Assembly (NCBI GenBank): GCA_027922465.2
Contig: BQMF02000789.1
Span: forward strand, 1 to 64,000
DNA: 64,000 nucleotides
Reading direction: 5' to 3'
Origin: Turritopsis dohrnii
Taxonomy: Eukaryota > Cnidaria > Hydrozoa > Anthoathecata > Oceaniidae
Shown here piece by piece: positions 1-64,000 of this stretch (positions within the stretch are counted from its first letter, which is position 1; every line of letters starts with the position of its first letter). The position numbers and the translations under genes are program-made. The notes under the pieces were generated by a model. That model worked only from the letters and a program-made list of their open reading frames with translations, was not told the origin of the DNA and did no database searches.

Positions 1-3000
1 CCTTTCTGTCTTCTAACACTTTTCTATTTGCATTCCAGGTTCGTTTTTTGTACGTTAGTTAGTTTCTCCGTTATTTTAAAAGACGTTAGTTTTTAGATAG
101 AAAGGTTTGTTGAAGATTATTATCACAGTTTCGACTATTTCTTTTTATTTTTAGTCAGTTTGCTTCTGCTTCTGCCTAGATTTGTGCTGTTTATTCACAG
201 TTGGTAGCTATTTCTTTCTTTTTTGTTGTTAGTGTTTCTGAACTGTGATGTTTAATATAAGAGGCACTAATATTATTCCTGGCTTCCAAGCAGTTTTTAG
301 GAATGGCCAGTTTGTGCTCCAGCCACCTGATCAGCATCAAATACGCTCTGTTATTCAGCGTCGGCATGCACACGAGGATGTGGCTGAGGCAAGTCGCCAA
401 CAACTTAAGCAAAAACATTAATATCCAGCCACCAGATATTCAGCATGTCGCATCAGAAAATGAACGACTTCGAATCAATAATGCTGAAAGACGTGTTCAG
501 TATCGTCAAATTGAAGGTGACGGTCAAAGAAATAGCCCGGCGAAATGCAAATGTTCGTCGCATGAGGGCTAGGCGGGCTAATCAACCCTTGCATCGTGCT
601 GCTCGGCAAGGCCAAATGCCTGAGTTACATTATCTTGGTGCCATGGACAAGGTCTGTCAGTATTGTGGTGCCAGGATGTTTGCAGAAGAAACTAATTTTA
701 AGTGTTGTCACAATGGTAAAGTTCATTTAGATAACATTTATTATCCTAATGACCTTAAAGCTCTTTAGTAGGTGATAACAATCAAGCAAAGAACTTTCAA
801 GAAAATATTCGAAAGTTCAACAGTTCGGTTGCTTTTGCTTCCATGGGTGCGAAATTGGCTGTGCCGCCAGGTCGTGGTCCACCAGTTTTTCGTATCAATG
901 GCCAGGTATGTCACCGAACAGGTAATTTACACCCACCACCGGGTGTTCCTCCATCATATGGTCAACTATATATTTATGATGGTATGGATGCTTTCAACGA
1001 GCGAATGGCAAGACCAGAAAATCAAGGTTGCTCCCCTGAAGTCATGCAAGCTTTGCAAGATATCATTTTAAGGGAGAGTCCATATGCAGCTGCATATAAA
1101 CACATGGGTGAGGTAGAGGCGGAGGAATTGCAACTCGCAAATGAACAGAATCGTCACCCATCTGAGGTAAGTGCAAATAGATTGTTATACTTCAATAATC
1201 TTTTTCAACTGCTATTGATAATTTGCTATTGATTTTCAGGTAAGAATGCACTTGAGAAGTGGGGGTGACCGCCGCCGATATAATCTACCTCATCATGATG
1301 AAGTAGCAGCTGTTTTTGTTGGTGAAGATGGTGCACCACCATTAGCTCGAGACATTGTTGTTTACCCTCGAGATAGACCATTGCAGGATTTGCCTGCGCA
1401 ATCACCTAATATCGATCCAATGGTGTATCCTGTATTTTTTCCAAGAGGAGAGTTGGGCTGGAGTTCCGACATTCCTCATGTAGCAGAATATGCAGTAGGT
1501 CAGCAACGTCGCACGACCATGCTGCAATATTACACATTTAGGTTTGCCTTTAGAGATGCGTTTAGCCCCATCTTAAAAGGTAAAAGATTACTTCAACAAT
1601 ATGCCGTGGATAGCTATTGTAAAGTTGAAGCTAATCGCTTGCATTTCATACGGATGAACCAGGCAGCTCTTCGGGTTGAACAATATCAAGGCCTTATTGA
1701 TCATCTTGCCAATGTTGCGGAAAATCGTGGGCTTCATGCAGGCAGACCAGTAATTCTACCTTCTTCATTTCAGGGTGGTCCAAGAGCCATGCTACAAAAT
1801 TATCAAGATGCTATGGCTATGGTCACTAAAATGGGAAAACCAGATTTGTTTTGCACTTTCACGTGCAATCCCAAATGGCGAGAAATTACAGAAAATTTGG
1901 ATAATGAGCCAGCACATTATCGACCTGACTTGGTTGCACGTGTTTTTAATTTGAAATTGAAATCACTCTTAGAGGATATTACTAAAAATGGTGTTTTGGG
2001 GAAATCCATTTCGCACCTGTATGTTATTGAGTTTCAGAAACGTTCTTTACCTCATGCACATATTCTTATCCATTTAGCTCAAGAGGACAAACTGCAGAAT
2101 GCTGATGATATTGACAGCTTAATTTCTGCTGAAATACCAGATCCTGAACTTGAACCAGAGCTACATAACATCATCAGATCATGTATGATTCATGGTCCCT
2201 GTGGGAATGCAAATCCTAATTCAGTCTGCATGGGAGATGATGGCAACTGTACCAAGAATTTTCCAAAGCCATTCTGTGATGCAACCCAAATGAATGCAAA
2301 TGGGTATCCAATGTATCGCAGACGCAATGATGGTCGTACAGTGAGGGTCAAAAACGTGGACTTGGATAATCAATGGGTTGTACCATACTGCCCGTGGTTG
2401 TCAAAAAAATACAATGCTCACATAAATTTGGAAGCATGTACCACGATAAAAAGTGTGAAATATCTCTTTAAATACGTTTACAAAGGACATGATCGTGCTA
2501 ATGTTGAGATTAATGAATGTCTGGAGCATGACGAAATTAAAACATTTCTAGATGCTCGATATGTTAGTGCACCGGAAGCATTGTGGAGAATTTTCGAGTT
2601 CTCCATGAATGATAAATCCCACACTATCAAACGATTAGCTGTTCATTTACCTAATTGTCATCAGGTTTATTTTAGAGCTGGTGAGGAAGAGGCAGCTGCT
2701 GAAGGGGCATTGAAAGATAGTCACCTAACAGCATGGTTTAAGCTGAATGTGGAAGATCCTGATGCTCGACAGTTTCTTTATTCAGATATTCTATATCATT
2801 ATGTCTTTCATGACAAACAGAAAAAATGGCAAAAACGAAAAAAAAACATTCAAACCGATTGTCGCTCGGTTATACAATGCCCGTCCATCAGAAGGAGAAC
2901 GTTTTTTCCTTCGGGTTTTGTTGCTGCATGTTTCAGGTGCCACATCATTCGAATATCTGCGTACTTTCAATGGAGTGGTTTACGACACATTCCGAGAAGC

Positions 3001-4960
3001 GTGTATTGCCAGAGGTCTTCTACAAGATGATGAAGAGTGGCATAACACATTGGAAGAGGCGTCAACATTTCAAATGCCCCAACAGATGAGACAGCTGTTT
3101 GTCACGATTTTGACACACTGCGAACCCTCCAATCCCCTTGAGTTGTGGAATACATTCAAGGAGCATCTGTGTGAGGACTATACTCGAACATTAGCTCTTG
3201 CTCAAGCAGAACAAAGGGTTTTGGGTTATATTGATAATGTCCTCAAACAATTCGGTATGTCCTTAACTCAATTTAATCTTCCAGAGTTGGTTCAACAGAT
3301 CCCCGAGGAAGAAGTGGATGTAAATGTTTACATTGACAGGGCACAACAGGTAAGGCCTCAGCTTAATGAACAGCAGGTAGCTGTGGCTGATGCAATTTTG
3401 TCTGCTGTTTCAAATGTGCGTAATGGTTTAGCACAACTTGAAACATTGTTTTATCTGGATGGACCAGCTGGCACAGGTAAAACTTTTACATATAACTATG
3501 TTATTGCAGCATGTAGAGCCAGAGGTTGGAAAGTTGCAACTGCTGCATATACAGGTATTGCAGCCACCTTACTCTCTGGTGGATGTACATTGCATTCATT
3601 ATTTCGTTTGCCTGTTCCTGTTTTAGAAAACAGTGTATGTAAGATAACCCCGACATCTAAACATGCAGAATACCTTCGGAGTATTGACCTGTTTCTGATT
3701 GATGAAGCTACAATGGTGTCTACGCACATTTTTCATGCTATCGACAGATTACTACGTGATATTTGTGGTAGTGATGCAGTTTTCGGTGGAAAGGTACTTT
3801 TGTGGGGTGGCGATTTTCGTCAGTGTTTGCCAGTTGTGAAGAAAGCAAAACCAACTGATGTTATTGAAGTTTGCTTGACAAGTTCTGCTTTGTGGGCATC
3901 AGTGGTAAAGTACTCACTTACCGAGAACATGAGAGCCAGGCCGGAAGAACAAGAATTCTGTGCGTGGCTATTACAACTTGGTAATGGTGAACTGCCAACA
4001 AAACTAAATGAACCTGCTAAAGGCTCAGTCGAAATCCCTGATTGTTGCGTTGTTCCCCAAAACACTTCTATTATATCGGTGATGTATGACGGATTGGAAC
4101 CTCACGAATATGCCGCCACAGCTATTTTGACACCAACAAACGAGCAATCGTTAATCATTAACAATGAGGTGTTGGACAGATTGCCAGGAAATGCAGTTTG
4201 TTATTACAGTGCTGATGAGGTGGTATGTGACGATGAAGACGAGCGGCAAAATTATCCGCTTGATTTTTTAAATAGCATCACGCCGTCAGGTATGCCTCCT
4301 CATTGTTTGAAGCTTAAAGTTGGGGCTATTATTATGCTCTTGAGGAACCTTAATATCAGGAAGGGTCTCTGTAATGGCACACGCTTGATTATCCGTGAAC
4401 TGTCAGGCAATTTTATTAAAGCTGAAGTTTTGACAGGGTCAGCAGTTGGAGAAATCATTTTCATACCTAGGGTTGAACTGTCACCTTCAGATACAGGTAT
4501 GCCTTTTATATTAAAACGCAGACAATTGCCTATCCGTTTGGCCTACTCTTTCACTATTAACAAGAGTCAAGGTCAAACATTTAATAAAATTGGTTTGTTT
4601 TTGCAGAGTCCGTGTTTTTCTCACGGTCAGCTATATGTCGCATGTTCCAGGGCAAAGGCATTTGATAATGTGAAAATCAAAGTTGCTGCTACTGGGAAAC
4701 AAGGTCATATCAATGGAAAGATGTATACTCAAAATGTTGTCTTTCCACAAGTATTACAGTAACTTAATTCTGCATATCTTTTCTTTCATCTTTTCATATC
4801 CACAAAAGTATTGTATTGTTGAGTGAGTTACAAAAATACCGGAAATAAAAACACTGCTTTTCCGGTGAGCATTTTGATATCCTCACTCATTTGGAGAGTG
4901 ACTATCATTGCAGTTGTCTAAAAGCGGCTTTTCGGCTAAGTTGGTATACCAACTCTGTGA
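1..4960 (+). mobile_element. Decayed autonomous Helitron (Rep/helicase type)
   Basis: Most of a rolling-circle Helitron. It encodes the HUH Rep and PIF1-like helicase described in the next entry. The left terminus (a 5' TC) probably lies before the window. I could not fix the right terminus: no hairpin followed by CTRR stands out after the helicase stop at 4762. Candidate terminal structures are an 8-bp stem at 4838-4845/4860-4867 and a perfect 16-bp palindrome at 4939-4954 (agttggtataccaact). The end at 4960 is therefore an estimate. No endonuclease domain was seen, so the element is a classical Helitron rather than a Helentron. Confidence 0.8.
248..4762 (+). pseudogene. Helitron RepHel replicase-helicase, several frameshifts
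   Basis: Rolling-circle transposase. From the ATG at 248 the reading runs through a basic, repetitive N-terminus (248-421, then another frame to about 540), a Cys-rich finger (645-735, CxxC then CC), and a third frame from about 774. A likely 73-nt intron at 1167-1239 (GTAAGT...TTTTCAG) joins this in phase to 1240-2846. The Rep part shows FCTFTCNP (about 1852-1875), an HUH-type PHAHILIHL motif (about 2049-2075) and the paired tyrosines of YLFKYVYKG near 2461, four residues apart. After the frame change the PIF1 helicase has Walker A GPAGTGKT (about 3463-3486), Walker B FLIDEA, GDFRQCLPVV, and C-terminal YSFTINKSQGQTF and YVACSRAK. Frame breaks lie near 421, near 540, at 763-768, and at a run of nine A at 2838-2846. 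The breaks make it non-functional unless some are sequencing errors. Confidence 0.85.
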
Positions 4961-18408: not shown

Positions 18409-18625
18409 TAAACCTGTCTGGACAATCTTCCCTAATCAAACTTCACTTGCTGAGCTCATTCTTCAAGGTTCCGTTAAAACAAAACCTGCCTGGTCAACCT
18501 TCCCTAATGAAACATAGATTTGCTGTGTTAATCCTTCAAGGTTCCCGTAAAACAAAACCTGCCTGGTCAACTATCCCTAAGCAAACTCTCCCTGGTAAGT
18601 TCTAATTCTTTCAGGTTCTGTTGGA
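18409..18625 (-). repeat. 73-bp tandem repeat across the rabenosyn stop codon
   Basis: Three diverged units with the marker aggttc at 18466, 18539 and 18613, giving 73- and 74-bp spacing. The rightmost unit contains the last ~15 codons and stop of rabenosyn-5. The other two units are in its 3' UTR. See the findings. Confidence 0.7.
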
Positions 18626-21600
18626 ACATTTCCACTTCATCGTATCGTTCATCTTTGATAGCCTGTCGAATATAACCTTTCACGTTCTCGATCTGTTGAA
18701 GGATAGGATCTGACGATTCGCTAGTACTAACTTGAACAGGTCCCCAACTCGTCTCCACCTTCCTCGATATCGCTACAGGAAAGACTGGTCGAATATCCCT
18801 CCCTAACGATTTGAACTTGGCTTTGGTGTTGTCAAAAAAGTTCGTTTGCTTTTGATGTCCTCCACCGTCTTGGTTGTACTGTTCTCCACCATCCACGCTT
18901 TCTACCGGCACAGGACTCGGGCTGTTTCTTGGCGACGCCTCGAGTCTTGATGATTGGGCGTTGGCCGCTTTTAACCGCTCTCGTTCCTTGACTCTTCGTT
19001 GTACGATAACGTTGTATTGATCCTTCGTGGGTAAAGTAGGTAACGTCAACATGTTATCCACGAGATAATTTGAAGCATATGCGCGAACTGACCGCTGTAA
19101 CTTCAGGACCTGGGGATTAGGTTGCTTTTCTTTTTCCAAACCAAGGGCCTGGATTCGTTTACTTAAATAAAACACACAAGAGTGAAGTGTCGAGTTTTAG
19201 TAGATGAACTGACCATTGGCAAGGTGAAATATGAGAGCTAAATACCTCAAGGCTTCGACAGTTTCGTAAGCTTTCAAGAGCTTCACTCTGATTTCCATAG
19301 CGCTCTCAAGACCGTAGTCACTCTCGCCAGCACTAAATAATAACAGAAGATAGATTTAAAATATCTTTTTGAAGAACTTAAAACATTGTATTTTAAATAA
19401 AGATAAAATTAATTTAATAACACCTCTTCACTTCATATGAAAATGCAGATGGTGTTATTAATAGTTCTAGCATGCAAATACCGCCTTGGTTTTATTAAAA
19501 TATTCACTAAATCGACAATTCTGATAGCAAAAAAAACCCCACACTGCCAACACACTAGTACACTATTTCCTGACACAGGGGTCTGGTGGAGAGGAGTGCA
19601 AAGGTGAAAAGACTAAGTAACCTTTTAGCAATGGAATAGGCAAAATATCAGAATATTACTGAATGGGAGTTACAGCTTTTGTTTGGTTTGGAACTCCATT
19701 AACTTGAGTCCCAACCCTCCTTACAGACAAGATCTGATGAATCTCCACCAAACCCATTCATAAGTAACCATTAACAAGTTCTACACTTAGGCAGAGATAA
19801 AACCTTACTTAACTGAGTTTGCCATCTTCAGAAAGAGTGGTTGTATCGCGTCAGCTTCCCTCATGGACAACACCATTTTCTAAATTAACAAATTCCCCTT
19901 TTTTTATAATTATTTAGATCAATTTGATAACACTAAATCTTAGTTCACACCAGGCCAAATACGAAAATTGTTTAAAAATTCAGCAGTGTTCATTGAAGAG
20001 TATCAATAAATGCGAATCTTTTCCACCTCTAATTGTACTTAACAGACCTGCAATTCAATTGGTCGACATTTAGGCATTTAATTTTGCTAAGTCAGTTTGG
20101 GAATTCATATCAGCTCTTCAGATTGACTTCAGTGTGACAAAATTTTGCATTTATCATCTAAGGTGAACATTTTTTGGCAATTTTTAAAACTTTTAGTGAT
20201 CTCATTCAATTAGATGTAGGCAAGATGAAGGTTTATCACTTCGTACATTTTTGTTCATTTTTCACCCAATTTGTTACCCATTTGTATCATCGGTTTTACC
20301 ATCAAAGAACACTTTCTAGCTTCTTTTCATCTTCCTCAATTTAGTCAGAGTGACTTTTTATCAATTTGATATAATATACAAACATATAATATACAATTAT
20401 CATTATGTGTAATATATGTTTATCATTATCTTGTGCTAAATGTTTTGAACATTATGAAAACTGTATAACCATAATACATTCCTCTACAGTTTACTCTGAG
20501 GTGATCAAAACAACTATTTCAGGATTTCAAAGACACAGGGTTAACCTTTATACGCAAGTACGTATGTAAGTAAAAGTAACTGGGACATTCAAGTCCATGG
20601 GCTGCAACCGGAAAGGTTGCTGTTCCGCCCGTCTTATTGCCAGAGATACGTATAGCATTGCTCTTACTTGCCCGAAGGCCTTTTAAAGCGCATTGGAGTG
20701 GAATATTAAGATACAACATGAGACTCAAACACAAGTCGCAGCGGCCGCACTCAAAGGTACAAACCACTACTCTATCGCTGCACAATAGAGAAGGTAGTAC
20801 AGAGTAGGATAAAACCTTCTTTACATTTTCATTGAAAGACTTTGAAGAAACCCATAAATGTCTTGCCAAACATACATGCTTTTCTTTATATACCTTTATA
20901 AGCATCACTAGATCCAGTATTGATAAAATTTAATAACATTTAAGTGCTATAACCACATTTCAAGTCCCTATTCAGGATAGCTTTAACTCTCGAACATGTG
21001 GGCATTTTATACTAAAAAACTCTAAGAATGAAATACTTCTTTTACTTCCCATAAAATTACTTCAAACTCACCTCATATAACTGGAGGAGAATGCTGTTGG
21101 CTTTTTTATCTTGTGTCAATTTATTTTGTCTAAAAATGGCAAAAAACAGAAAATAATACATAGATTTACTAATTATCATATCGGCATGTTTATCTTTCCA
21201 ATTGCAGTGCAAAGTATTGGATTGAGTGGGACATGGAACCCACAACACCTTGATAACTTTGCACAGACATTCACATACAGTATTTCCTCTAATAAACGCT
21301 GTGGCTTTTATTACAAATTCCAGTTTTTTGGATGCGGCTTTTAATAGAGGGCCACATTCATTACAGGGTGGTGTTTATTACAAAATGATACACAAACATA
21401 TGTTCATAAAAACGAGCAATATCACTGTCACCGTTCTCTTCTATGAGATGAAAACTTTTATAGCAATTAATTACACGTCAAATATTCATGCAAACGTGGA
21501 AGAATTTGTTGATAGAAAACAAATAAAACTATTTGCCATTAAACCAATTCTTGTTTAGCCTGTTTTCTAATAAACGCTGCTTTCCAAGAAGGCATTGTTT

Positions 21601-47769: not shown

Positions 47770-49705
47770 GTTGTTCGTATGTTTTGAACCTTTTTCAGCC
47801 AGAATTTCTGTTATTTTCTTCTTGGCTTGAAGAACACAGTTTCACATTTCAGTCTCACTTCGTTTGTTCTTTATGGAACTTCCAGTAAAATAAAAAAACA
47901 TTTTTTTGAAACACCTTTGCTACTGGTTTGTTCTTGTTTCCGTTTTAACGATTCAAATTCATTTTTGATGCAATGTGGAAGTAAAATGTGACGATTCGAG
48001 GGAAAATCACTACAAGCGATAATAGCGCTTTATACAAAGTGCTAATAGCGCTAAAAGAACAATGGGTTTTAGCGCTAATTTGTTCTTATTTACAAATGTA
48101 GTAACAATATTAGTGATAAATTTAGCGCTTGTAGTTTTATCATTATCACTATTATCGCTTATAAATATCGCTCTTTACGAAAAAGCGCTAAATTTTAGCG
48201 ATAAGTATTTGATTTATCACTAAATTATTCGTATAATAATGTTGGTTCAATTAATTATGTGAAACGGACAGAATATCGAATGAGATGAAAGTGAAATCGT
48301 TAATATCATTAATATCCTCTAAGGGCACAGATTACCGTTATTATCGTCAAAAAGTTTTGTTCAAGTCTTTTGTTTATACAATTTCACATACCATGTGTTG
48401 TTTTATGAAGTTCTCAAATAACAGTGATTTAACTACTTTTTCGCCAAATAGCAATAAATACAAAACAAACTCGCTTGTTTTGACATGATAAACTATGATT
48501 CATTGTGTTATGACTGAACAGACGAGCGGACATATTTCTCGAGAAATAAAAAGTTTCCGAAACGCTTTTTATTTTATTTGTTATTCCGGCACCTTCAGCA
48601 CAAATCTGAAAGCCAATTTAAAATACTGTGTTATTCGATTTGGTAATGTATTATTTTGAAACATTTACAGGTAGCACCTGCTTGTGTATTAAATTGAACT
48701 TAATTGACTGGTTCCTATATTCAGTTGGAGATTAAAGATACAGAAGTTAGTTCGAAAGCAACCACAAGTAGAAACCATCTGCGATAATTCTTTTTTCTAG
48801 ATTGTTCGATTGCCATTCTATAAGCTCTTGGGAGAAAACTTTTACAATATTAAAGACACATTACATTAAAAGTTTTTTCGATAGCAAAACCTTATTATTA
48901 TTCTTTCGAAAAACATTTCACTTGCACTGGGTGGAGATGTACCCTTAATTAAATTGATCACAACGTTTTTAGTGATCATTATTGACTTCTGTCAATGCAT
49001 TGATAATGTCTTTAGGTTCAATATTAGGATGAAGTATGAATGTAGGAAGGGGAAAAATAAAAACATTTTAAGTTCGGCTTGACGAGTTGCGAAAGTTCTC
49101 TTTTGAAATACTCACTTTCGTTTAAATAAAATAACACCTGTTTCCTTCGGCTTTTCGTGAGGTTTATGTGAAAGATTGTCTGAAGGTTGTGTTGACACAC
49201 ACAAGTAAACTTACGTATAAAAAAGACGGAAAGATGAATAATATTTATGATGAATATATTAGCAACAAATTAATTATTCTTGAATAATTAATTAATTATT
49301 CTTGAAAGCGCTTTTTGTGCTGCTTATATTTATCGCTAAGTTCGTCAATGTTAGCGATAAATTTAGCGCTACTTCTCGATGCGAGCGCTATTATCGCTTG
49401 TAGTGATTTTCCCTCGAATCGTCACAAATAAATATATGAAAAATGATAGCCATTTGGTAGTCACCCAATAAGAGCGTGCAAACAGGCCAAACATTGCATT
49501 ATCATTCATATACTTTTACACATTTATTTTAGACGAGAAAAGAAACACAAGTGAAAATACAATTCAAAAGAATTTACGGCAAGAGAACTCGCATATCCTT
49601 AACTGTTCTTATTTTGCAAGACAATTCAGGCTCAGGCTGTTTTTTCTTTTTGGCCAAATCTGAGAATAGGAGTTCTTATAAAATTGTTCTTATAAAAAAA
49701 AACAT
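47770..49705. repeat. aataagaaca-type repeat split by another element
   Basis: 47770-47987 and 49426-49705 resemble the two halves of the repeat at 25540-25960 (ggaacttccagtaaaataaa on the left, ggccaaatctgagaatagga on the right). The MITE 47988-49425 interrupts it. Confidence 0.45.
47988..49425. mobile_element. MITE with agcgct/gcgataa motifs
   Basis: The TIR gtgacgattcgagggaaaat extends perfectly to about 42 bp and is inverted at 49384-49425. AAAT flanks both sides (47984-47987, 49426-49429). The outer ~200 bp on each side contain many tagcgcta and gcgataa motifs. There is no coding frame. Confidence 0.7.
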
Positions 49706-51498: not shown

Positions 51499-52653
51499 TC
51501 AGCGAAATACATACCATATACTAAACATCGTGGTAATCGCTAAAACCAAAGCTATTTTCTCTTCTTCGTGAGATGGGAGTGAATCTGTTTGACTCACTAC
51601 TCTTTTATGAACTTCCTTTTGTGAACTTTTATTTTGTGTTGGAGAGCTAATCACTTTGGGTGAAATATGATGCTCTTGCATAACATTAATCATTTTATTT
51701 CTCCCAAGGCTTAGGTTATCATTAGATATGAGAATTTTATTATTATAACCAGACACTCCCAACTTGATGTTTAGATTCATATCACTAGGTAACATGTAAA
51801 TACCTTGTCCAACAGAATAATCAACTTTACTTGAAGCGTAATTTAAAGTATCTTGATAACGTTTAATGTCATCTTGAATATCAACTCTGCGATTAACAAT
51901 GTCTTCAAAGTTGTTCATAAAAACTCTTTGAGCTGTCAAAGCACTTGAATTATTACCTAAAATAGAAGAACGAGCTGAGGCTTGCGAACTAAGAACAAGA
52001 TAAGCATATGCTCTAACACTCTCTGAAATTTTTACAAGACCTGTTTTTGTAAAGCCTTTAGATTTTTCTATAATCCATCGTGTCATGGAGTCGTCTGTGA
52101 AATAACTCAGACCTGGCGTTGGATAGTCTCTACGTCTTTTTTGATACGAGCTGTAAAAATATTGTCCTTTGTATTTTTTAGGATCAGAATCGACACCATA
52201 TTCACTACAGATTTTTAAAAACTCTTCTTTGTTATAAGGATTATCGTATTGGTTGAAACTATCTTCAAAAGGTAGAGGTGTCTGCAAGCGCTTAATGATT
52301 CGTCTAATGTGATAATAGACGTGAAAACGATATACTGCTCTAATCATAGGAGTAGAGCGACCTTCTTTCAGATGTTCAGAACTGACCCCACAAGCGCTTG
52401 AAGCACACCAAGTGACAAAATTGAGTTGGGTTTGCCATAATTTAAACGGTTGTTCCTGCCAAATTTTCATACGTTGATCATTTTCTTCCATTTCGTAATT
52501 AGTAAATATATTTGGAAAAGTTGCGGGGAAAGAACCGCTCTCAGAGACAATAATTGTTTGTTTGTATAAATCTTTAGCATTCAATATCTGAAGGTATTGT
52601 CCTCCATTTGGCTTATAAAGCGCATTGGGAACATATTTAAAAATATCCTCCAT
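51499..52653 (-). CDS. Polinton protein of unknown function, C-terminal anchor
   Basis: 384 residues from ATG (MEDIFKYVPNALYKPNGG). The middle holds WQTQLNFVTWCASSACGVS and a Tyr/Arg-rich region. A hydrophobic segment close to the C-terminus (about 367-383, ALVLAITTMFSIWYVF) looks like a tail anchor. I recall similar ORFs in cnidarian Polintons but no assigned role; a virion membrane or structural role is a guess. The frame is intact and divergent from the penton-like gene across a 39-bp AT-rich gap (52654-52692). Confidence 0.6.
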   Translation of the reverse strand: MEDIFKYVPNALYKPNGGQYLQILNAKDLYKQTIIVSESGSFPATFPNIFTNYEMEENDQRMKIWQEQPFKLWQTQLNFVTWCASSACGVSSEHLKEGRSTPMIRAVYRFHVYYHIRRIIKRLQTPLPFEDSFNQYDNPYNKEEFLKICSEYGVDSDPKKYKGQYFYSSYQKRRRDYPTPGLSYFTDDSMTRWIIEKSKGFTKTGLVKISESVRAYAYLVLSSQASARSSILGNNSSALTAQRVFMNNFEDIVNRRVDIQDDIKRYQDTLNYASSKVDYSVGQGIYMLPSDMNLNIKLGVSGYNNKILISNDNLSLGRNKMINVMQEHHISPKVISSPTQNKSSQKEVHKRVVSQTDSLPSHEEEKIALVLAITTMFSIWYVFR

Positions 52654-52692: not shown

Positions 52693-53253
52693 ATGTATAT
52701 CACAGCAAATATCGCAAAAGGAGAAAAGACCATATATCTATCTTACCCCATTCAAAACTTGGATGGCTCAAAAGAAATTGCATTGGTTGATATGTTTGCA
52801 GACAATGTTATGTATGAAATCACAACACCGATAACATTGAAAACGTCTGACGATGGGAAAGCTGAAAAGTCGATACCAAAACGAACATTCACGAGTAGAG
52901 GATTGAATGCCTTTTTAGCAGGTGCCTTTTTAGAAGACGATATAGAAATTAAATCATTAGCCAAATACCCTCAAATAATCAAAACAAATAAGCTCGCTAA
53001 CGTAACCAAAATTAATTTGCATCTCTCTGAACTTGACAACACTCAAAATCTTGAGAATGGAAAGCTAAGTGATATTTTACTAACCTATCACATGGTTGAA
53101 TATAGTGACTTCACACATGTTCAGCCTAAAAACCCTCAATACAAAAAATTAAAAAATGGTGTATTTCAGTCTCTCACGTTGAAACTCACAGATCAGCATG
53201 GCAATATGCTAAAAGAAGACCTAGGAAGAACCGTTGTTTTGCACATTCGCTAA
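52693..53253 (+). CDS. Putative minor capsid (penton) protein
   Basis: 186 residues, mostly predicted strands, with the C-terminal pattern SLTLKLTDQHGNML ... VVLHIR seen in short single-jelly-roll minor capsid proteins of Polintons. It sits directly before the major capsid gene (43-bp gap), the usual order. In the family the protein forms the five-fold vertices of the icosahedral shell. The frame is intact. The assignment rests on position and C-terminal pattern rather than a decisive motif. Confidence 0.55.
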   Translation: MYITANIAKGEKTIYLSYPIQNLDGSKEIALVDMFADNVMYEITTPITLKTSDDGKAEKSIPKRTFTSRGLNAFLAGAFLEDDIEIKSLAKYPQIIKTNKLANVTKINLHLSELDNTQNLENGKLSDILLTYHMVEYSDFTHVQPKNPQYKKLKNGVFQSLTLKLTDQHGNMLKEDLGRTVVLHIR

Positions 53254-53296: not shown

Positions 53297-54616
53297 ATGA
53301 AGTATGGAAAGAGGTTAAATCCAGAACGTTCACTTAGAACTGCCCACGGTGTAAAAGGTTCTCGTCAAAAAGTAATTGTCACACACAATCCGAGTGAGAT
53401 CGATCAAAATCAGCTATTATTGGATAGGTTTCCAAATTTAGGAAGTGATGATGTTATTATCCCAGGAACAACGAATCTAAGTTTTGATATTGAACTCGAG
53501 TCGAAAGCTGACTCAGAAAGAACATTGGTCAGTAACATTGGGAGAGCTATCGTTAAAAAGTTGGCTGTCAAGTTCGAAGGTAACGAGATATTGAGTATCG
53601 ACGACTTTGATCTTTTTGGGTGTTACAGAGATTTATGGTTAACCAAGTTTGAAAAGAGAAACGCGATAAGACAGGGTATCATCATCGACGATGGGTGTAC
53701 AGAAAATTGTATGAAATTGAGGATTGGTGCTTCAGATAAAGACACCTCTGATGCAGAAGACAAAGCCATTGCTGACACCTATAAAAACAAGTTTGTCATT
53801 CCACTCGACTTTGAGATGCTAGATAGTACTATCCCATATTATCAAGCGGGTTTAGGGAATAGGTTATGCTACGAGATCACATTTAACGATTATAACCGAG
53901 TTATTTATTCTGACCCTAACCTTTCTGCCGCAGGTCAAAGAAAAAACCCAGATGGTAAATACAAAATATCCAACATCTCACTTGAATATGAGCTTGTGAC
54001 ACAACCCACGTTGGCTAGACAAATCGCTTCTGAATATCAAAACATGGCTTTGCTCTATGATAGGGTTTTGCGGCACAGACAAATTAGAGTAAACAAGTCA
54101 GACACAACGTGGAATTGGTCATTCAACACACCTGCCAAATCTTTGAAGGGTATTTTAGTTCTATTTGAAGAAGAAAAATCCTACAAACGAGAAACCTGCA
54201 AATTCTACAATCCAAAGATCGAAAAGGTATCTGTCATCGTCGAGGGTAAGCCTAACCAACTTTTTGCTCAAGGGATGCAGCCGTTTGAACAATACAATGA
54301 GATTTGCAAGTATTTTGCTGAAGGAAAACCAAAAGATAATAGCGTCGGCGAAAACCGAAAGCGCTTGGGATTACATGATGTAAAAGTCTCTGATTACTTA
54401 ACAAACAAGTATGCTCTATGGTTAGATTTCAGAACAATTGATGAGAATGCTTTGCATGGCACCGGTCGAAAGATTGAAAATGCGAGTGAAGGCATCACTT
54501 TACAGATTGAGAAAGACCGCTGAAACTGCAGGAAACTTAAACGCATATATATATCTAATCATGGATGCTCTAATTAAACATACAAAACGGTCAATTTATG
54601 TCTGCAGTATATTAGT
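53297..54616 (+). pseudogene. Major capsid protein (double jelly roll), C-terminus frameshifted
   Basis: The main frame 53297-54523 (408 residues) has features of Polinton major capsid proteins: a basic N-terminus, IPGTTNLSFDIEL, KNKFVIPLDFEML, and NRLCYEITFNDYN. Near its end comes KYALWLDFRTIDENALHGTG. The frame then stops at 54521-54523. The expected C-terminal extension is still visible up to about 54616 but in two other reading frames, so at least two indels (near 54515 and near 54570) truncate the product by roughly 30 residues. Loss of the last strand would probably prevent assembly. A polymorphism or assembly error cannot be excluded. TATATA lies just before the start codon. Confidence 0.75.
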
Positions 54617-54619
54617 AAA

Positions 54620-55296
54620 ATGAACACACTTTACATGAAAGAACCTCACACAGCATTATTCGTCGGACCAACATCGTGCGGCAAAACGGATCATGTTGTA
54701 AAATTATTAGAAAATGAATATCTTCAATCACTTTGATTTCATCGTGATTATATGTCCCACCTTAAGGTGGAATCAGACTTACAGAGATCGGAAGTGGTTC
54801 TGGAATGACAGCTATGTGATTTTAATTGAACCGGAAGGATCTTTGTATGAATATATTAAGAAAATGGACTTCTTTTGCGCCGGATACAAAACCTTATTCC
54901 TCATTGATGACATCATAGCTGATGAAAAATTGGACAAAAAGAGAAACCCTTTGCTCGAGTTGGCAATTAGTGGTCGCCATCGAAACCATTCGCTATGGTT
55001 ACTTACACAATCATACACAGGCTATACCTAAAAATTTACGACGGCAAGCTAAAATGTTATATGTGTGGTATCCAAAAGATAGAAACGATCTAGCCACCAT
55101 TCATGAAGAGAACGATGTCATTGAATCGCAAGAAGAATTGAAAAATAGTCAAGGAAAAACTGAAAGAAGGGAAACACACGTGCCTAGTCATGAGAATGGA
55201 ACACCCAAGAACGCACGTGATTTGTTAAACAGATTGATATATTTGTTACAAGACTCTTGTAACAAAAACTGTAAGACTGTTATAAGACTACTATAA
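54620..55296 (+). pseudogene. Packaging ATPase (A32/FtsK-type), broken
   Basis: Walker A GPTSCGKT is in a first frame (ATG 54620, stop near 54735). Walker B (LFLIDDI, about 54894-54914) and LLTQSY are in a second frame (to 55031). The C-terminal part (LRRQAKMLYVWYPKDRNDLA) is in a third frame ending at 55296. In the family this ATPase pumps DNA into the capsid. The two frame breaks mean no single product can have both Walker motifs. It begins four bases after the capsid remnant. Confidence 0.75.
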
Positions 55297-55325
55297 GACT
55301 ACTGTAAGACTACTGTAAGAGAATA
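55250..55325 (+). repeat. 11-bp minisatellite at the ATPase 3' end
   Basis: About four to five copies of aagactactgt, preceded by the hairpin ttacaagactcttgtaa. It could mark termination between the convergent ATPase and PP1-motif genes. Confidence 0.55.
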
Positions 55326-55327
55326 AT

Positions 55328-55540
55328 TTACGTCTCAATACAGGATTCTAGAATTTTACCAATATGTTTAATCCTCGATTCAAAGCGTACTCTGTCAACA
55401 GCAGCCTCTTTCCAGTTACTTCTACGAGATTCACAAGCAGAGATATAATGGACCATTACTATATCATTAAAAGTAACCCTTTTTGTATCTTGATGGGAAA
55501 ATATAATATCATCATCTGAGGATTCATCATCATCGAACAT
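55328..55540 (-). CDS. PPP1R15/GADD34-like PP1-docking protein in a Polinton
   Basis: 70 residues. An acidic N-terminus (DDDESSDDD, residues 3-11) leads to a canonical PP1-docking RVxF motif at 21-24 (R-V-T-F), preceded by Lys and followed by a hydrophobic alternation (residues 27-33). About 20 residues on come W43, an Ala pair at 46-47, then D49-R50, R52-F53 and R56-I57. RVxF followed by W...AA.DR.RF..RI is the arrangement of the C-terminal core of GADD34/CReP (PPP1R15) and of the GADD34-like proteins of herpes simplex virus and African swine fever virus, which bring PP1 to phosphorylated eIF2alpha and keep translation running under stress. The frame is intact and converges on the ATPase. 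Role is inferred from motifs only. Confidence 0.6.
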   Translation of the reverse strand: MFDDDESSDDDIIFSHQDTKRVTFNDIVMVHYISACESRRSNWKEAAVDRVRFESRIKHIGKILESCIET

Positions 55541-55626: not shown

Positions 55627-55775
55627 AACAAAATTATAAGAGGATAGCAAACTCTTATACAGCAAATTTCAACAAAATTATAAGAGGATAGCAAACTCTT
55701 ATACAGCAAATTTCAACAAAATTATAAGAGGATAGCAAACTCTTATACAGCAAATTTCAACAAAATTATAAGAGA
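55627..55775 (+). repeat. 44-bp tandem repeat with internal hairpin
   Basis: Three identical units (55627-55670, 55671-55714, 55715-55758) and part of a fourth. Each contains tataagag ... ctcttata, an 8-bp stem with a 9-nt loop. It separates the outward-facing starts of the PP1-motif gene (minus) and the next membrane protein (plus), so it occupies a divergent promoter region. Confidence 0.8.
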
Positions 55776-55805: not shown

Positions 55806-56360
55806 ATGATAGAATATGTCAACTTCGTGTTATTAAGCATACTGCTGATCTCGCTATTTTACTTTTATTTTGTGTTAAAAAAATACCTCTCTCTAATAAA
55901 AATGGCGGAAACAGCGATCGATAATTTAATCAACCAGAGTTATGATGTTCCAGGTGAATTTCCACCTTCAGATGGTAAAAGACAAAAATTACTCGAGTGT
56001 GTCTTAACAGGGAAAAGCAAGCTATACTTAGGGAAAATGTACACGGAAGAGCAAATTAACAAACTCAAAGATGAAGAGGTAGAAAAACTTTTTAGTATTT
56101 ACGAGGCTAAACTATCAGGTCAAATGGTAAAATCCTTGGGGAAATCACTGATACGCATTTATTCGATGGGGGCTTGTACAACGTTAGGAATAAACAATCA
56201 AGATGCGTTGAGCAATGACCTGGAAACTGACCCCTTCTTAAACTCTGCTCTTCAAAGATTTACATGTGACTTATATTATAAATTCGGCTCATTATTAGCA
56301 CCACTCAGTGTTGGACTTATTACCGGGAGGCATTATATCAATGAAAGGAAATTTAAATAA
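55806..56360 (+). CDS. Polinton membrane protein, unknown
   Basis: 184 residues. Residues 7-28 form one hydrophobic segment. An alternative internal start (M33, MAETAIDNL) would remove it. The body has a mainly helical, Lys/Glu-rich region and ends YYKFGSLLAPLSVGLITGRHY. I recall similar ORFs in cnidarian Polintons, without a known function. The intact frame begins 30 bp after the 44-bp repeats. Confidence 0.6.
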   Translation: MIEYVNFVLLSILLISLFYFYFVLKKYLSLIKMAETAIDNLINQSYDVPGEFPPSDGKRQKLLECVLTGKSKLYLGKMYTEEQINKLKDEEVEKLFSIYEAKLSGQMVKSLGKSLIRIYSMGACTTLGINNQDALSNDLETDPFLNSALQRFTCDLYYKFGSLLAPLSVGLITGRHYINERKFK

Positions 56361-59890: not shown

Positions 59891-60874
59891 TCACCAACCT
59901 TGCACATAATCAGGAGGTAGCTCTGTATCTTCAGGTATTAATATCAGCTCTTCTTTCACAAAAGCTCGTTCAGGTCCATCTTGAAGGTAATACATTACGC
60001 GGTTACCAGGTTGCTCTATTACCTCACTCAATCTATATGTCTTCTTTGACCATATGATATCTGTTGCTCTTTTTCGATGGTCATCGTGCTCTTCACCCGG
60101 TTGCAATAGATATCTATACAAACCATCTTGAGGTAGCTCTACTTCAGGTGGATAGCTCTCTTGTTTAGCGAGAGACACCTCTTTCAATTTGATGGCATCT
60201 TTCGGTTTCATACCGATCATCTGCGTCTTCGTATCGTTTAATCTATCCACAAGTTTATACAAATATTTGACCCACGTAGATGATACCTTTTCCGAATCGT
60301 TCAGTTCTTGAGCATCTTGTATTTTGAATAAATTTTCGGCAAGTATCTTGTTCAACGCCTCGACAAACGCTGTATGGGTATGCTTATATTTAGTAGTTAC
60401 TCTTTTAATTTCAACGTTATTCTTCTCCAACAGCTTTGTCACATCGGCTTTGAATTCTGAACCGTTATCACATTGAAATACTTTTGGATAGTTTAAGGGT
60501 CCAACTCTATAGATATCTCTTATCATATCGGCAACCTCTTTGGCTTTCTTAGTCTTCAAAGGTCGGGCTACTTTGTAACGTGAAGCAACATCGATACCGG
60601 ATAAGATGTACTTGTATTTATTACCATATAGCATATCACTAGGCATATACAATATATCAAATTGATGAATCTCATTCGGTTTAGTTACCTCATAATGTGG
60701 ACGTTCGATCCTTTTCGTTGTCGGTAGATGTACCTGCCACAAAGCTTGTTTTGATAGCCACTTCTTAATTTCCTTCGGTTTGAAACCAAATCCTCTTAGA
60801 TTGCGAACAGCCTTTTGTCCTTTCCATAAGTTTTGAGGTTGATAATAAATCTCTTGAAGTTTAGTGTCTGACAT
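59891..60874 (-). CDS. Polinton integrase (DD35E)
   Basis: 327 residues. The catalytic triad is visible: D73 (HQFDILYMP), D136 (FQCDNGSEF) and E172 (TAFVEALNKIL), with 35 residues between the last two. The C-terminal region (IIWSKKTYRLSEVIE ... AFVKEELILIP) looks like the SH3/chromodomain-like tail of such integrases. No intact N-terminal HHCC finger is seen; the protein begins only ~70 residues before D73, shorter than retroviral integrases. It would cut and join the Polinton termini into a ~6-bp staggered target. The frame is open and all key residues are kept, so the enzyme may still be active. Confidence 0.88.
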   Translation of the reverse strand: MSDTKLQEIYYQPQNLWKGQKAVRNLRGFGFKPKEIKKWLSKQALWQVHLPTTKRIERPHYEVTKPNEIHQFDILYMPSDMLYGNKYKYILSGIDVASRYKVARPLKTKKAKEVADMIRDIYRVGPLNYPKVFQCDNGSEFKADVTKLLEKNNVEIKRVTTKYKHTHTAFVEALNKILAENLFKIQDAQELNDSEKVSSTWVKYLYKLVDRLNDTKTQMIGMKPKDAIKLKEVSLAKQESYPPEVELPQDGLYRYLLQPGEEHDDHRKRATDIIWSKKTYRLSEVIEQPGNRVMYYLQDGPERAFVKEELILIPEDTELPPDYVQGW

Positions 60875-61392: not shown

Positions 61393-64000
61393 ATGACTAC
61401 TAAAAATACTGTTGTTGAATTAAAAGCTCTTGCGAGAGAACGCGGTTTACATGGCTATTCAAAACTTAGAAAAGCTGAGTTGATCGAATTATTAGCAAAC
61501 CCACCTGTCCGACCTGTTCCGCTACCAAGACCTACTAGGTTTAACCGACCTGTTCCACCACCAAGACCTGTTCCATTTATTCCTACCCAACAAGATATGG
61601 ATTTGTTTGAACAACAAGAAATGGGAAAATCTCGACCTGTTGTGAAAAGCAAGTTGAATGAATGGAGAGATTGGTTAATAAATCATGTACCTAAAGCTAT
61701 TAAGGAGAAAGTGAGTGGCGCTTTCAGAGAGATGAAGAAGAAGATTCTCAATCTCTACAAGAGGAAGACTGATGAAAAAGATGAAAAATTGGTGGAACCA
61801 GAAGCGTTTGTCCCCATTGAAATGGCGTTTGAGGGTTCTTACAAAAGGTTCAAGATAAACTCAGATGGAAAAAAGGACGTTGATTCGTTTCTCAAAAAGG
61901 TTCGACCCATTTTAAGTGATCTGATTATGAGAGAACTCAAAAACAAAAAATCAATAAAAATTCAAGCAACTGTGTGGATCAAATGGAGAAAAGAAGATCT
62001 ATCCAATCCTGAAGCAACAATCTATGTTGATAAGGCGTTTAATAGCAATATGGAAACAATTCACAATGAAAGCGATATATCTGATGTTATTAATAAGATG
62101 TTCAATAAGATAATCGAACAGGTTGAAAACCCTGCGTTACCTCAATCCGGCTTTGTTATCGATAAAATTTTAAATATTGATGTGGATTTTCACAAGCTAA
62201 AATTAACGAGAGGCAGCTCTTACTTGCCGCTACCTAAGAATTTCAGTGGTAAGTATTCGATAATCAATCCTAAAAACAAAGATGATGAAGAGTGCTTCAA
62301 ATGGGCTGTTATCGCAGCTCTCAATCATGATAAGATCGATAATCATCCTGAACGAATCTCGGCTCTCAAAAAGTATGATAAATATAATTGGGAGGGTTTA
62401 TCGTTTCCAATGGCGCTAAATAAAATAGATTTGTTTGAGAGGAGGAACCCTGATATCGCTGTGCATGTTTTAACAAAAGACGAGAAAGAAGGTATCTATA
62501 TGTGTCGTAAGTCGAAGCATCTTGATCACAAAGAAACGGTTGTTTTGTTTTTACTATGTGAAGAGGAAAAGAGACATTATATAGCTGTAAAGAACTTGAG
62601 CGGTGTCTTGAGTAAGGTCAACTCGAATCATGAACATAAGGAGCATTATTGTTTGAATTGTCTCAATGGATTCTCAAGTGAGAAAACACGAGATGAACAC
62701 TTTGAATATTGTAAAAATAATGATGTTGCGAAGATTGAGATGCCAAATGAGGGTAGCACCGTTAAGTTTCATGACGGTCAGTACCAGCTCAAAGCTCCTT
62801 TCATAATGTATGCTGATTTCGAAGCTTTGTCAAAAGAGGTTTGTAAAGAACCGCGTAGCGTTATTGGATCATCCACTAAAAAGGTTGGTATACATATCCC
62901 CACAGGCTTCTGTTGTTATAGCAAATTTGCTCATGGTGAAGTTTCAGACCCTCTAACGCTTTATCGAGGTGAAGACTGTGTTTTACGTTTTGTAGATCAT
63001 GCGGTAGGTGAAGTGAAAAGGCTATACAATATGTTTCCTAAACAGAGAATGCGAGACCTCACATATGAAGAGGAACAGGGATTTACCGATTCTGATAAGT
63101 GCCACATATGTATGAAAGAATTTGAAAAAGATAATATTAAGGTTAGGGATCACTGTCATTTTACTGGTAAATTTCGTGGAGCTGCACATCAGTCTTGTAA
63201 TCTCCGTTACAAAGTGCCTAAATACATTCCGATCGTCTTTCACAATCTGAGCGGATATGATGCTCATCTATTTATCAAAGAACTAGCCAAACAGTATGGA
63301 GATGAAGGGATTGCTGTCATCGCTGAAAACAAAGAAAAATATATCTCTTTCTCATTGGATGTTAAGGTTGGTGAATACATTGATAAAAATGGGGTGACTA
63401 GGGTTCAAAAGATACAGTTGAGATTCATCGATAGCGTGCGTTTCATGGCTAGTAGTCTGGATAACTTGGTAAACAATCTATCCGACGATCAGTGTAAAAA
63501 CCTTCGAAAATTCTTCAAGGGTGATGAGCAATTCAAACTATTGAGAAGAAAAGGAGTTTATCCTTATGAATACATTGATTCTTTTGATAAGTTTAACGAA
63601 ACTAAGCTCCCACCGAAAGATGCTTTTTACAGCAAGTTGAACATGAAAGGTATCAGTGATGCTGATTATACACATGCACAGAAGGTGTGGAAACACATGA
63701 AAAATAAAAATATGGGTGCGTATCATGATCTCTACCTCAAGACAGACGTTCTATTGCTTGCTGATGTTTTTGAGACTTTTAGGGAAACATGTATAACAAA
63801 CTATAAACTGGATCCTGCACATTTTTACACTGCTCCGGGACTAGCTTGGCAAGCCTGTTTGAAAAAGACAGAGGTTGAGCTGGATCTGTTGTCAGATATG
63901 GATATGTTTCTGTTCGTAGAGCAAGGTATTAGAGGAGGTCTCTGTCAGGCTGTTCATAGACATGCTAAAGCTAATAACAAGTATATGGATGCTAAATATA
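61393..64000 (+). CDS. Polinton DNA polymerase B (partial, runs off window)
   Basis: Open from ATG 61393 to the window end (869 codons seen, no stop). Residues 1-35 form a SAP-like motif (TVVELKALARERGLHGYSKL), followed by a Pro/Arg linker (about 36-60) and a helical region. Exonuclease motif I is YADFEAL (D475, E477). A Cys/His insertion at 63100-63204 (CHICMKEF ... DHCHFTGKFRGAAHQSCN) matches an endonuclease VII-type HNH pattern. Then come FHNLSGYDAHLFIKEL (Exo II-like), FIDSVRFMASSL, and YHDLYLKTDVLLLADVFE (Exo III-like). The polymerase palm lies beyond the window. In Polintons this enzyme copies the element with a protein primer. Confidence 0.85.
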   Translation, partial: MTTKNTVVELKALARERGLHGYSKLRKAELIELLANPPVRPVPLPRPTRFNRPVPPPRPVPFIPTQQDMDLFEQQEMGKSRPVVKSKLNEWRDWLINHVPKAIKEKVSGAFREMKKKILNLYKRKTDEKDEKLVEPEAFVPIEMAFEGSYKRFKINSDGKKDVDSFLKKVRPILSDLIMRELKNKKSIKIQATVWIKWRKEDLSNPEATIYVDKAFNSNMETIHNESDISDVINKMFNKIIEQVENPALPQSGFVIDKILNIDVDFHKLKLTRGSSYLPLPKNFSGKYSIINPKNKDDEECFKWAVIAALNHDKIDNHPERISALKKYDKYNWEGLSFPMALNKIDLFERRNPDIAVHVLTKDEKEGIYMCRKSKHLDHKETVVLFLLCEEEKRHYIAVKNLSGVLSKVNSNHEHKEHYCLNCLNGFSSEKTRDEHFEYCKNNDVAKIEMPNEGSTVKFHDGQYQLKAPFIMYADFEALSKEVCKEPRSVIGSSTKKVGIHIPTGFCCYSKFAHGEVSDPLTLYRGEDCVLRFVDHAVGEVKRLYNMFPKQRMRDLTYEEEQGFTDSDKCHICMKEFEKDNIKVRDHCHFTGKFRGAAHQSCNLRYKVPKYIPIVFHNLSGYDAHLFIKELAKQYGDEGIAVIAENKEKYISFSLDVKVGEYIDKNGVTRVQKIQLRFIDSVRFMASSLDNLVNNLSDDQCKNLRKFFKGDEQFKLLRRKGVYPYEYIDSFDKFNETKLPPKDAFYSKLNMKGISDADYTHAQKVWKHMKNKNMGAYHDLYLKTDVLLLADVFETFRETCITNYKLDPAHFYTAPGLAWQACLKKTEVELDLLSDMDMFLFVEQGIRGGLCQAVHRHAKANNKYMDAKY

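Follow-up and report, generated by a model that had tools for sequence, protein, structure and literature searches.

A Polinton of Turritopsis dohrnii carries a gene for a putative PPP1R15-like, PP1-docking protein

A Polinton in the window, by which we mean the whole stretch of 64,000 nucleotides of Turritopsis dohrnii DNA analysed here, appears to encode a minimal regulatory partner of protein phosphatase 1 (PP1). To judge from its sequence matches, the 70-residue frame is a genuine homologue of the PPP1R15 (GADD34/CReP) core. We consider it probable that the family's accessory protein, about 82 residues long, directs host PP1 to remove the phosphate from eIF2alpha. The parts of this reading differ in strength: docking on PP1 is well supported by the motifs of the protein, eIF2alpha is the likely target, and an anti-PKR/PERK role of the Polinton protein is an inference. 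An earlier note on this DNA had claimed a Polinton with a PPP1R15-like PP1-docking protein, an assignment that the profile match and the genome copies support. The features of the gene are as follows.

55328..55540, minus strand: PPP1R15-like (PP1c_bdg) frame, 70 aa, ATG to stop, assigned by Pfam and PDB sequence match
55370..55387, minus strand: RF..RI, residues 52-57, putative counterparts of PPP1R15A Arg591, Phe592, Arg595 and Ile596 by spacing from Trp
55412..55414, minus strand: W43, putative counterpart of PPP1R15B Trp662 and PPP1R15A Trp582 by gapless alignment (role as in PMC8500838)
55469..55480, minus strand: RVTF PP1-docking motif, residues 21-24, read in the translation

PF10488 (PP1c_bdg) is the sole Pfam match of the 70-residue frame, at 32.2 bits (E 1.1e-7) against a curated cut-off of 26.1 bits, which bears out the kinship to PPP1R15 that the earlier note had proposed from the letters; an 82-residue Polinton copy scores 33.8 bits. 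A PDB sequence search with the same frame places human PPP1R15B first (4v0u, E 4.8e-6) and DP71L of African swine fever virus (ASFV) second (9nb9, E 6.9e-4). The 53-residue PPP1R15B core aligns with the window protein without gaps, with 20/53 residues identical, a BLOSUM62 score of 92 and the same spacing from RVxF to Trp. The best of 20,000 shuffles scores 52 against this core (0/20,000 as good as 92), and among the window's 364 stop-to-stop frames of at least 50 residues the runner-up scores 34. An RVxF motif at residues 21-24 and a downstream W...AA.DR.RF..RI arrangement had been described, and both read out in the translation: W43-KEAAVDRVRFESRI lies downstream of RVTF, and from residue 43 the protein reads WKEAAVDRVRFESRI. 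The protein consists almost only of the PPP1R15 conserved core, and by reading we see in it no FLKAWVY-type repeat, the eIF2gamma-binding element of PPP1R15 (PMC10998612).

The carrier is a Polinton as judged from its rve integrase, its PolB-type frame and its weakly matched capsid and ATPase frames, which are arranged around the PPP1R15-like gene as listed here. Several frames of this stretch recur in the copies looked into.

51499..52653, minus strand: 384-aa Polinton frame without an assigned function
52693..53253, plus strand: 186-aa frame, probable minor capsid protein, named from position alone
53297..54523, plus strand: 408-aa probable major capsid protein, by position and a weak PF16903 match
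54714..55296, plus strand: probable packaging ATPase, split into frames 54714-55031 and 54922-55296, by a weak PF04665 match
55268..55320, no strand: 11-bp tandem repeat between the ATPase end and the PPP1R15-like stop
55627..55774, no strand: 44-bp tandem repeats, 3.4 perfect copies, in the divergent intergenic region
55806..56360, plus strand: 184-aa frame, hydrophobic near its N-terminus as read by eye, lying divergently beside the PPP1R15-like gene
59891..60874, minus strand: rve integrase (PF00665, 42.5 bits, cut-off 32.6)
61393..64000, plus strand: probable protein-primed PolB frame, continuing past the window end, with Rho_N/SAP and endonuclease VII matches

Gene content is the ground for the name Polinton, no terminal repeats having been seen: between 42 and 64 kb no inverted repeat of at least 40 bases frames the element, which passes the window end. 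The 408-aa capsid frame matches PF16903 (Capsid_N) weakly (E 0.055, under the cut-off), has no match in a PDB sequence search, and yields a single-sequence fold model with a pLDDT of only 31, too low for use. The ATPase frame likewise matches PF04665 (Pox_A32) weakly and under the cut-off (E 0.0098); it is a single open frame in other copies as against two overlapping frames in the window copy. Stops or frameshifts interrupt 13/75 near-complete ATPase copies in the fetched set. The part of the PolB frame within the window (61393..64000) gives no match to PF03175. A genome search with this profile returned 3 matches over the cut-off among 91 scored of 696 candidates, two of which, on C555 and C746, have a PPP1R15-like copy about 8.1 kb away in the same relative orientation; for the third (C840) no PPP1R15-like gene lies nearby among the matches listed. 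By the spacing on C555 and C746, the PF03175 domain would fall at the very end of the window. Between the PPP1R15-like gene and the 184-aa frame, the 44-bp repeats carry the inverted repeat TTATAAGAG...CTCTTATA, and a single 44-nt unit has an RNA fold z of -4.3; this region is a possible shared or bidirectional promoter or regulatory site. The distance from the capsid gene to the PPP1R15-like gene differs among copies. Elsewhere in the window, translations read by eye indicate Helitron-like Rep/helicase frames at 843-4762, a frame at 18567-19052 carries a rabenosyn Rab-binding domain (PF11464), in keeping with an animal genome, and perfect 43-bp inverted repeats at 47987-48029 and 49384-49426, 1354 bp apart, may mark the two termini of a short DNA transposon.

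The family is highly amplified, and the genome holds a large Polinton expansion. A PF10488 search of the 436-Mb genome gave 413 candidates, of which 150 were scored; all 150, the window copy included, exceed the cut-off and are free of stops in the matched stretch. The same search found no match in any of 14 control genomes. A protein search gave 445 candidates (150 scored), and the capsid frame gave 1062 first-look candidate places, of which 102 were scored and are 96-100% identical in protein. From the 150 PF10488 places 78 were fetched, namely the top of the list and odd ones rather than a random draw. The gene pattern is present in 78/78 of these copies, as 59 distinct proteins; one copy is without any Met, and one is without a Met ahead of RVTF. 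Among 77 fetched stretches, nearest neighbours are 93.5 to 100% identical (median 97%, with 15/77 at 99% or above). The earlier note had proposed a look at other Polintons for homologues at the same locus, and within this genome the gene keeps a fixed place, between the ATPase and the 184-aa frame and on the opposite strand, in 76/76 copies with both neighbours found (78 searched). To avoid choice by the PPP1R15 profile, 12 further copies were selected via the capsid gene. Ten of these hold a whole PPP1R15-like gene at the expected place; in L082 just its final portion remains, and in L089 the gene was not found in the 751 bases fetched. Since 9/10 of the gene-bearing, capsid-selected copies are in neither the PF10488 nor the protein-search match list, the true copy number exceeds 150. 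Two matches considered as a host PPP1R15 gene (C149 and C333) were rejected, both being Polinton copies. In L011 (C333, from position 3858) the protein has an acidic N-terminal stretch, (DESSDDDIIFSYQ/H) three times over, and is 108 residues long in total.

Counterparts of PPP1R15A residues were assigned in the Polinton proteins by spacing from Trp, with the PPP1R15A residues at positions 588 and 596 presumably Asp and Ile. Counterparts of Trp582, Asp588, Arg591, Phe592, Arg595 and Ile596 occur in 89/89 copies with a whole core, and RVTF in 88 of these 89 (KVTF in one), an invariance that for VTF, W, RF and RI is partly built in, the copies having been picked by a pattern holding those letters. 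Loss of RVxF and of the downstream Trp and Arg-Phe residues in related Polintons would have spoken against the assignment in the earlier note; they are kept in 89/91 copies examined, window copy included, and among these 91 no whole gene with a changed motif was seen, the two pattern failures being L089 and L082. In PPP1R15A structures, Trp582 contacts PP1, Phe592, Arg595 and Arg612 contact actin, and Arg587, Arg591 and Arg594 contact eIF2alpha (PMC8500838). Arg591 is kept in the Polinton proteins, and in 89/89 copies the counterpart of Arg587 is Val or Ala and that of Arg594 is Ser. These contacts are not invariant elsewhere, since the PDB alignments place Val at Arg587 in DP71L and Lys at Arg594 in PPP1R15B. 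The actin-contacting Arg612 has no clear counterpart in the alignment; typical copies continue LRRKLFSY, and the window copy stops earlier.

In DP71L, the segment LSAVL (residues 57-61) is needed to lower eIF2alpha-P and is not needed for PP1 binding (PMC5346070); it starts six residues after the RI of that protein in the PDB-search alignment. At the same spacing 85/89 Polinton copies carry LxPVL, LxPIL or IxPVL (LEPVL in 58, LDPVL in 19, IEPVL in 5, and LKPVL, LVPVL and LDPIL in 1 each), and the other four carry LESCI (2), LESVL (1) and LEPVG (1). A structure model built with 22 aligned sequences has no helix or strand up to residue 34 and one helix at 35-68, with block means of pLDDT of 85-97 over residues 41-70; this predicted shape is what a PP1-binding strand with an actin/eIF2alpha helix after it would give.

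Taken together with the known complexes, these features suggest how the protein might work. The acidic N-terminus and the RVTF-VxVHYI-RR-W string, the latter matched directly in sequence, would dock on the host PP1 catalytic subunit. The next helix (W-AAVDRxRFxSRI...LEPVL), with its conserved contacts and its predicted fold, would bind G-actin through Phe and Arg and turn its other face toward eIF2alpha. Phospho-eIF2alpha would then be dephosphorylated, and translation would continue during capsid and polymerase expression despite eIF2alpha kinases. For PPP1R15 itself, the core has been described as necessary and sufficient for a selective eIF2-P phosphatase (PMC10998612). A contrary view is that activity on eIF2alpha is not increased by a C-terminal fragment of PPP1R15A and that regions further upstream bring in the substrate; the same paper reports the H1 helix of PPP1R15A as conserved in DP71L and ICP34.5 (PMC7615683).

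The replacement of two of the three eIF2alpha-contact arginines counts, as far as residue identity can tell, against an eIF2alpha role. Paired with PP1-docking residues that barely vary, it is what one would expect of a PPP1R15-derived PP1 subunit now aimed at a different substrate, such as a structural or replicative viral protein. The most variant residues of the window protein also lie around the docking strand, with four or five different residues each at sites 27, 29 and 34. Such a change of target is nonetheless improbable in our judgement: the counterparts of Phe592, Arg595 and Arg591 are kept, as is LxPVL, whose counterpart in DP71L serves eIF2alpha dephosphorylation and not PP1 binding, and DP71L, which is active, likewise has Val at the place of Arg587 (PMC5346070).

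The window copy itself is atypical and somewhat decayed, and the earlier note was right about the family. After RI-KHIGKI most fetched copies read LEPVL or LDPVL and then RRKLFSY, and the window copy ends in LESCIET, a type of end found in one other fetched copy (L012). Its 3' end being changed relative to the form of 81-83 residues, the window copy is 70 aa long and without the LxPVL segment. The product length of 70 residues in the earlier note thus holds for this copy and not for the family, in which 69/78 other fetched copies encode 81-83 residues. The same note had called the gene intact inside a Polinton; the carrier is indeed a Polinton, yet the word is too strong for the window copy because the C-terminal segment is lost, and with the ATPase split into two overlapping frames the element is not fully intact either. 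With the LxPVL end gone this copy may be impaired, the PP1-docking part and most of the helix part being kept.

Evidence of selection within the genome is weak, and there is no clear purifying selection on the PPP1R15-like gene. Core columns identical with human PPP1R15B vary in 3/18 cases and the others in 20/34 (89 copies; Fisher p 0.004), a result that leans on copies chosen by PF10488 score; the 10 capsid-selected copies alone give 1/18 versus 7/34, which is not significant (p 0.15). The pN/pS among copies is 0.74 for 79 copies, 2.0 for 10 and 0.86 for all 89. Read in its five other frames, the same DNA gives 0.47 to 1.24, and in the real frame 0.81 (for 36 distinct sequences from the 79-copy set); because the real-frame value falls within the range of the others it carries no sign of purifying selection. 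Variants common to at least four copies comprise 12 N to 6 S in the PPP1R15-like gene, 0.69 of neutral; elsewhere the shared variants stand at 0.15 of neutral in the capsid fragment (53 copies) and 0.28 in the ATPase (75 copies), and the TM row of this test is unusable, with 74/77 copies shifted relative to the yardstick copy. The PPP1R15-like gene is either changing rapidly on the face that does not dock or under looser constraint than the capsid genes.

So faint a signal, along with the changed end of the window copy and the 2/12 capsid-selected copies that lack all or part of the gene, would fit a passenger, the gene then being an exon of a host PPP1R15 that a Polinton picked up a single time and that has been replicated with it while doing nothing for the element. 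The gene is nevertheless whole in 10/12 capsid-selected copies and fixed in place in the fetched ones, and a stop or frameshift interrupts it in 4/78 copies versus 13/75 for the ATPase, which is about 2.6 times longer; we think it unlikely that the gene is such freight. A chance frame with a look-alike motif, conceivable for a short frame in AT-rich DNA, is rejected as next to impossible on the PF10488 and PDB matches, the 0/20,000 shuffles as good, and the presence of the gene across genome copies.

Possible relatives were sought among database proteins. With just the window frame as query, an initial protein search gave no candidate. In a database of 5.8 billion proteins there are ten PPP1R15B-like exons (P0001-P0010), a PDB chain (P0013) and 23 short or partial core proteins (P0011, P0012, P0014, P0015 and P0016-P0034, the last group at E 3e-11 to 0.05). 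P0001-P0010 were not counted as viral relatives, since they are almost identical to the human core and differ in their starts, which suggests PPP1R15B exons. The 23 short or partial proteins, of 44 to 111 residues, keep the same core or a trace of it, and their contigs are 0.6 to 5.5 kb long in 21/23 cases and 290 and 707 kb in the other two. Many begin at MKKVTF; LxPVL or LxPIL is kept in P0011, P0014, P0015 and P0016, two of which (P0014 and P0015) also resemble the Polinton protein in their acidic N-terminus. Four were scanned with PF10488 and lie under the cut-off (P0011 at 17.4 bits, P0012 at 13.6, P0014 and P0015 without a match). Queried with the PPP1R15-like gene or its relatives, by protein and by pattern, and with the capsid frame, by protein, a collection of viral contigs gave no relative; a pattern match on the phage-like contig L001 was taken as chance, its frame overlapping a longer one. 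Tentatively, and with more doubt than confidence, we suggest that Polinton-type and other small animal DNA viruses repeatedly arm themselves with stand-alone mini-PPP1R15s, and that the present amplified family would be the first of these observed in genomic context. Its relatives would include 22 divergent PP1c_bdg-like proteins, 54-111 residues in length (P0011, P0012, P0014-P0029 and P0031-P0034), and Polintons may have moved the PPP1R15 core between hosts and large DNA viruses.

Whether the Polintons of animals are infecting viruses or plain transposons is still argued. A gene that helps only against a host translation block would be an argument from gene content that this Polinton family faces, or recently faced, a defence that herpesviruses and ASFV meet too. 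Such a gene would further point to the integrated stress response as an obstacle for elements of this sort in the host, and the PPP1R15-like gene offers a small, defined protein for testing this. The PPP1R15 trick is known from herpesviruses, ASFV and insect viruses. Within the reach of our searches the Polinton carrier is apparently new: the full-text literature, in which subscription journals are thinly covered, yielded no description of a Polinton with PPP1R15, eIF2alpha or protein phosphatase 1, or of a Maverick or adintovirus with GADD34. The main text of PMC11071296 and PMC11071308 likewise mentions neither phosphatase nor eIF2 nor GADD34.

Among known systems, vertebrate Polintons/Mavericks resemble the present family in having accessory frames beside a conserved core set, and differ in that the main text of PMC8097293 lacks the word phosphatase. 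Viral PPP1R15s are in print for HSV-1 and a granulovirus (PMC4394352). The C-terminus of HSV-1 ICP34.5, likened here by its description, has the same core and the same presumed role (PMC4394352, PMC8500838), but there the core is the C-terminal domain of a larger protein. The granulovirus/baculovirus homologue, such as coGV-gp036, also likened by description, is a viral PPP1R15 in an invertebrate setting (PMC4394352), carried by a baculovirus and not a Polinton; the baculovirus PPP1R15 is said to be of lepidopteran origin (PMC5704228). Animal PPP1R15A/GADD34 and PPP1R15B/CReP share with the Polinton protein RVxF, the downstream hydrophobics, Arg, Trp and the helix D-x-x-R-F-x-x-R-I, with the spacing of PPP1R15B, whereas the Polinton protein is core only, has its Arg587 and Arg594 counterparts replaced, and is borne by a mobile element. 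The short form of ASFV DP71L belongs to a large cytoplasmic virus of pigs and has one residue fewer between RVxF and Trp in the PDB-search alignment, but it too is a stand-alone protein, of 70-72 residues, and shares both WxxAAVDRxRFxxRI and an LSA(VL) at the same distance after RI.
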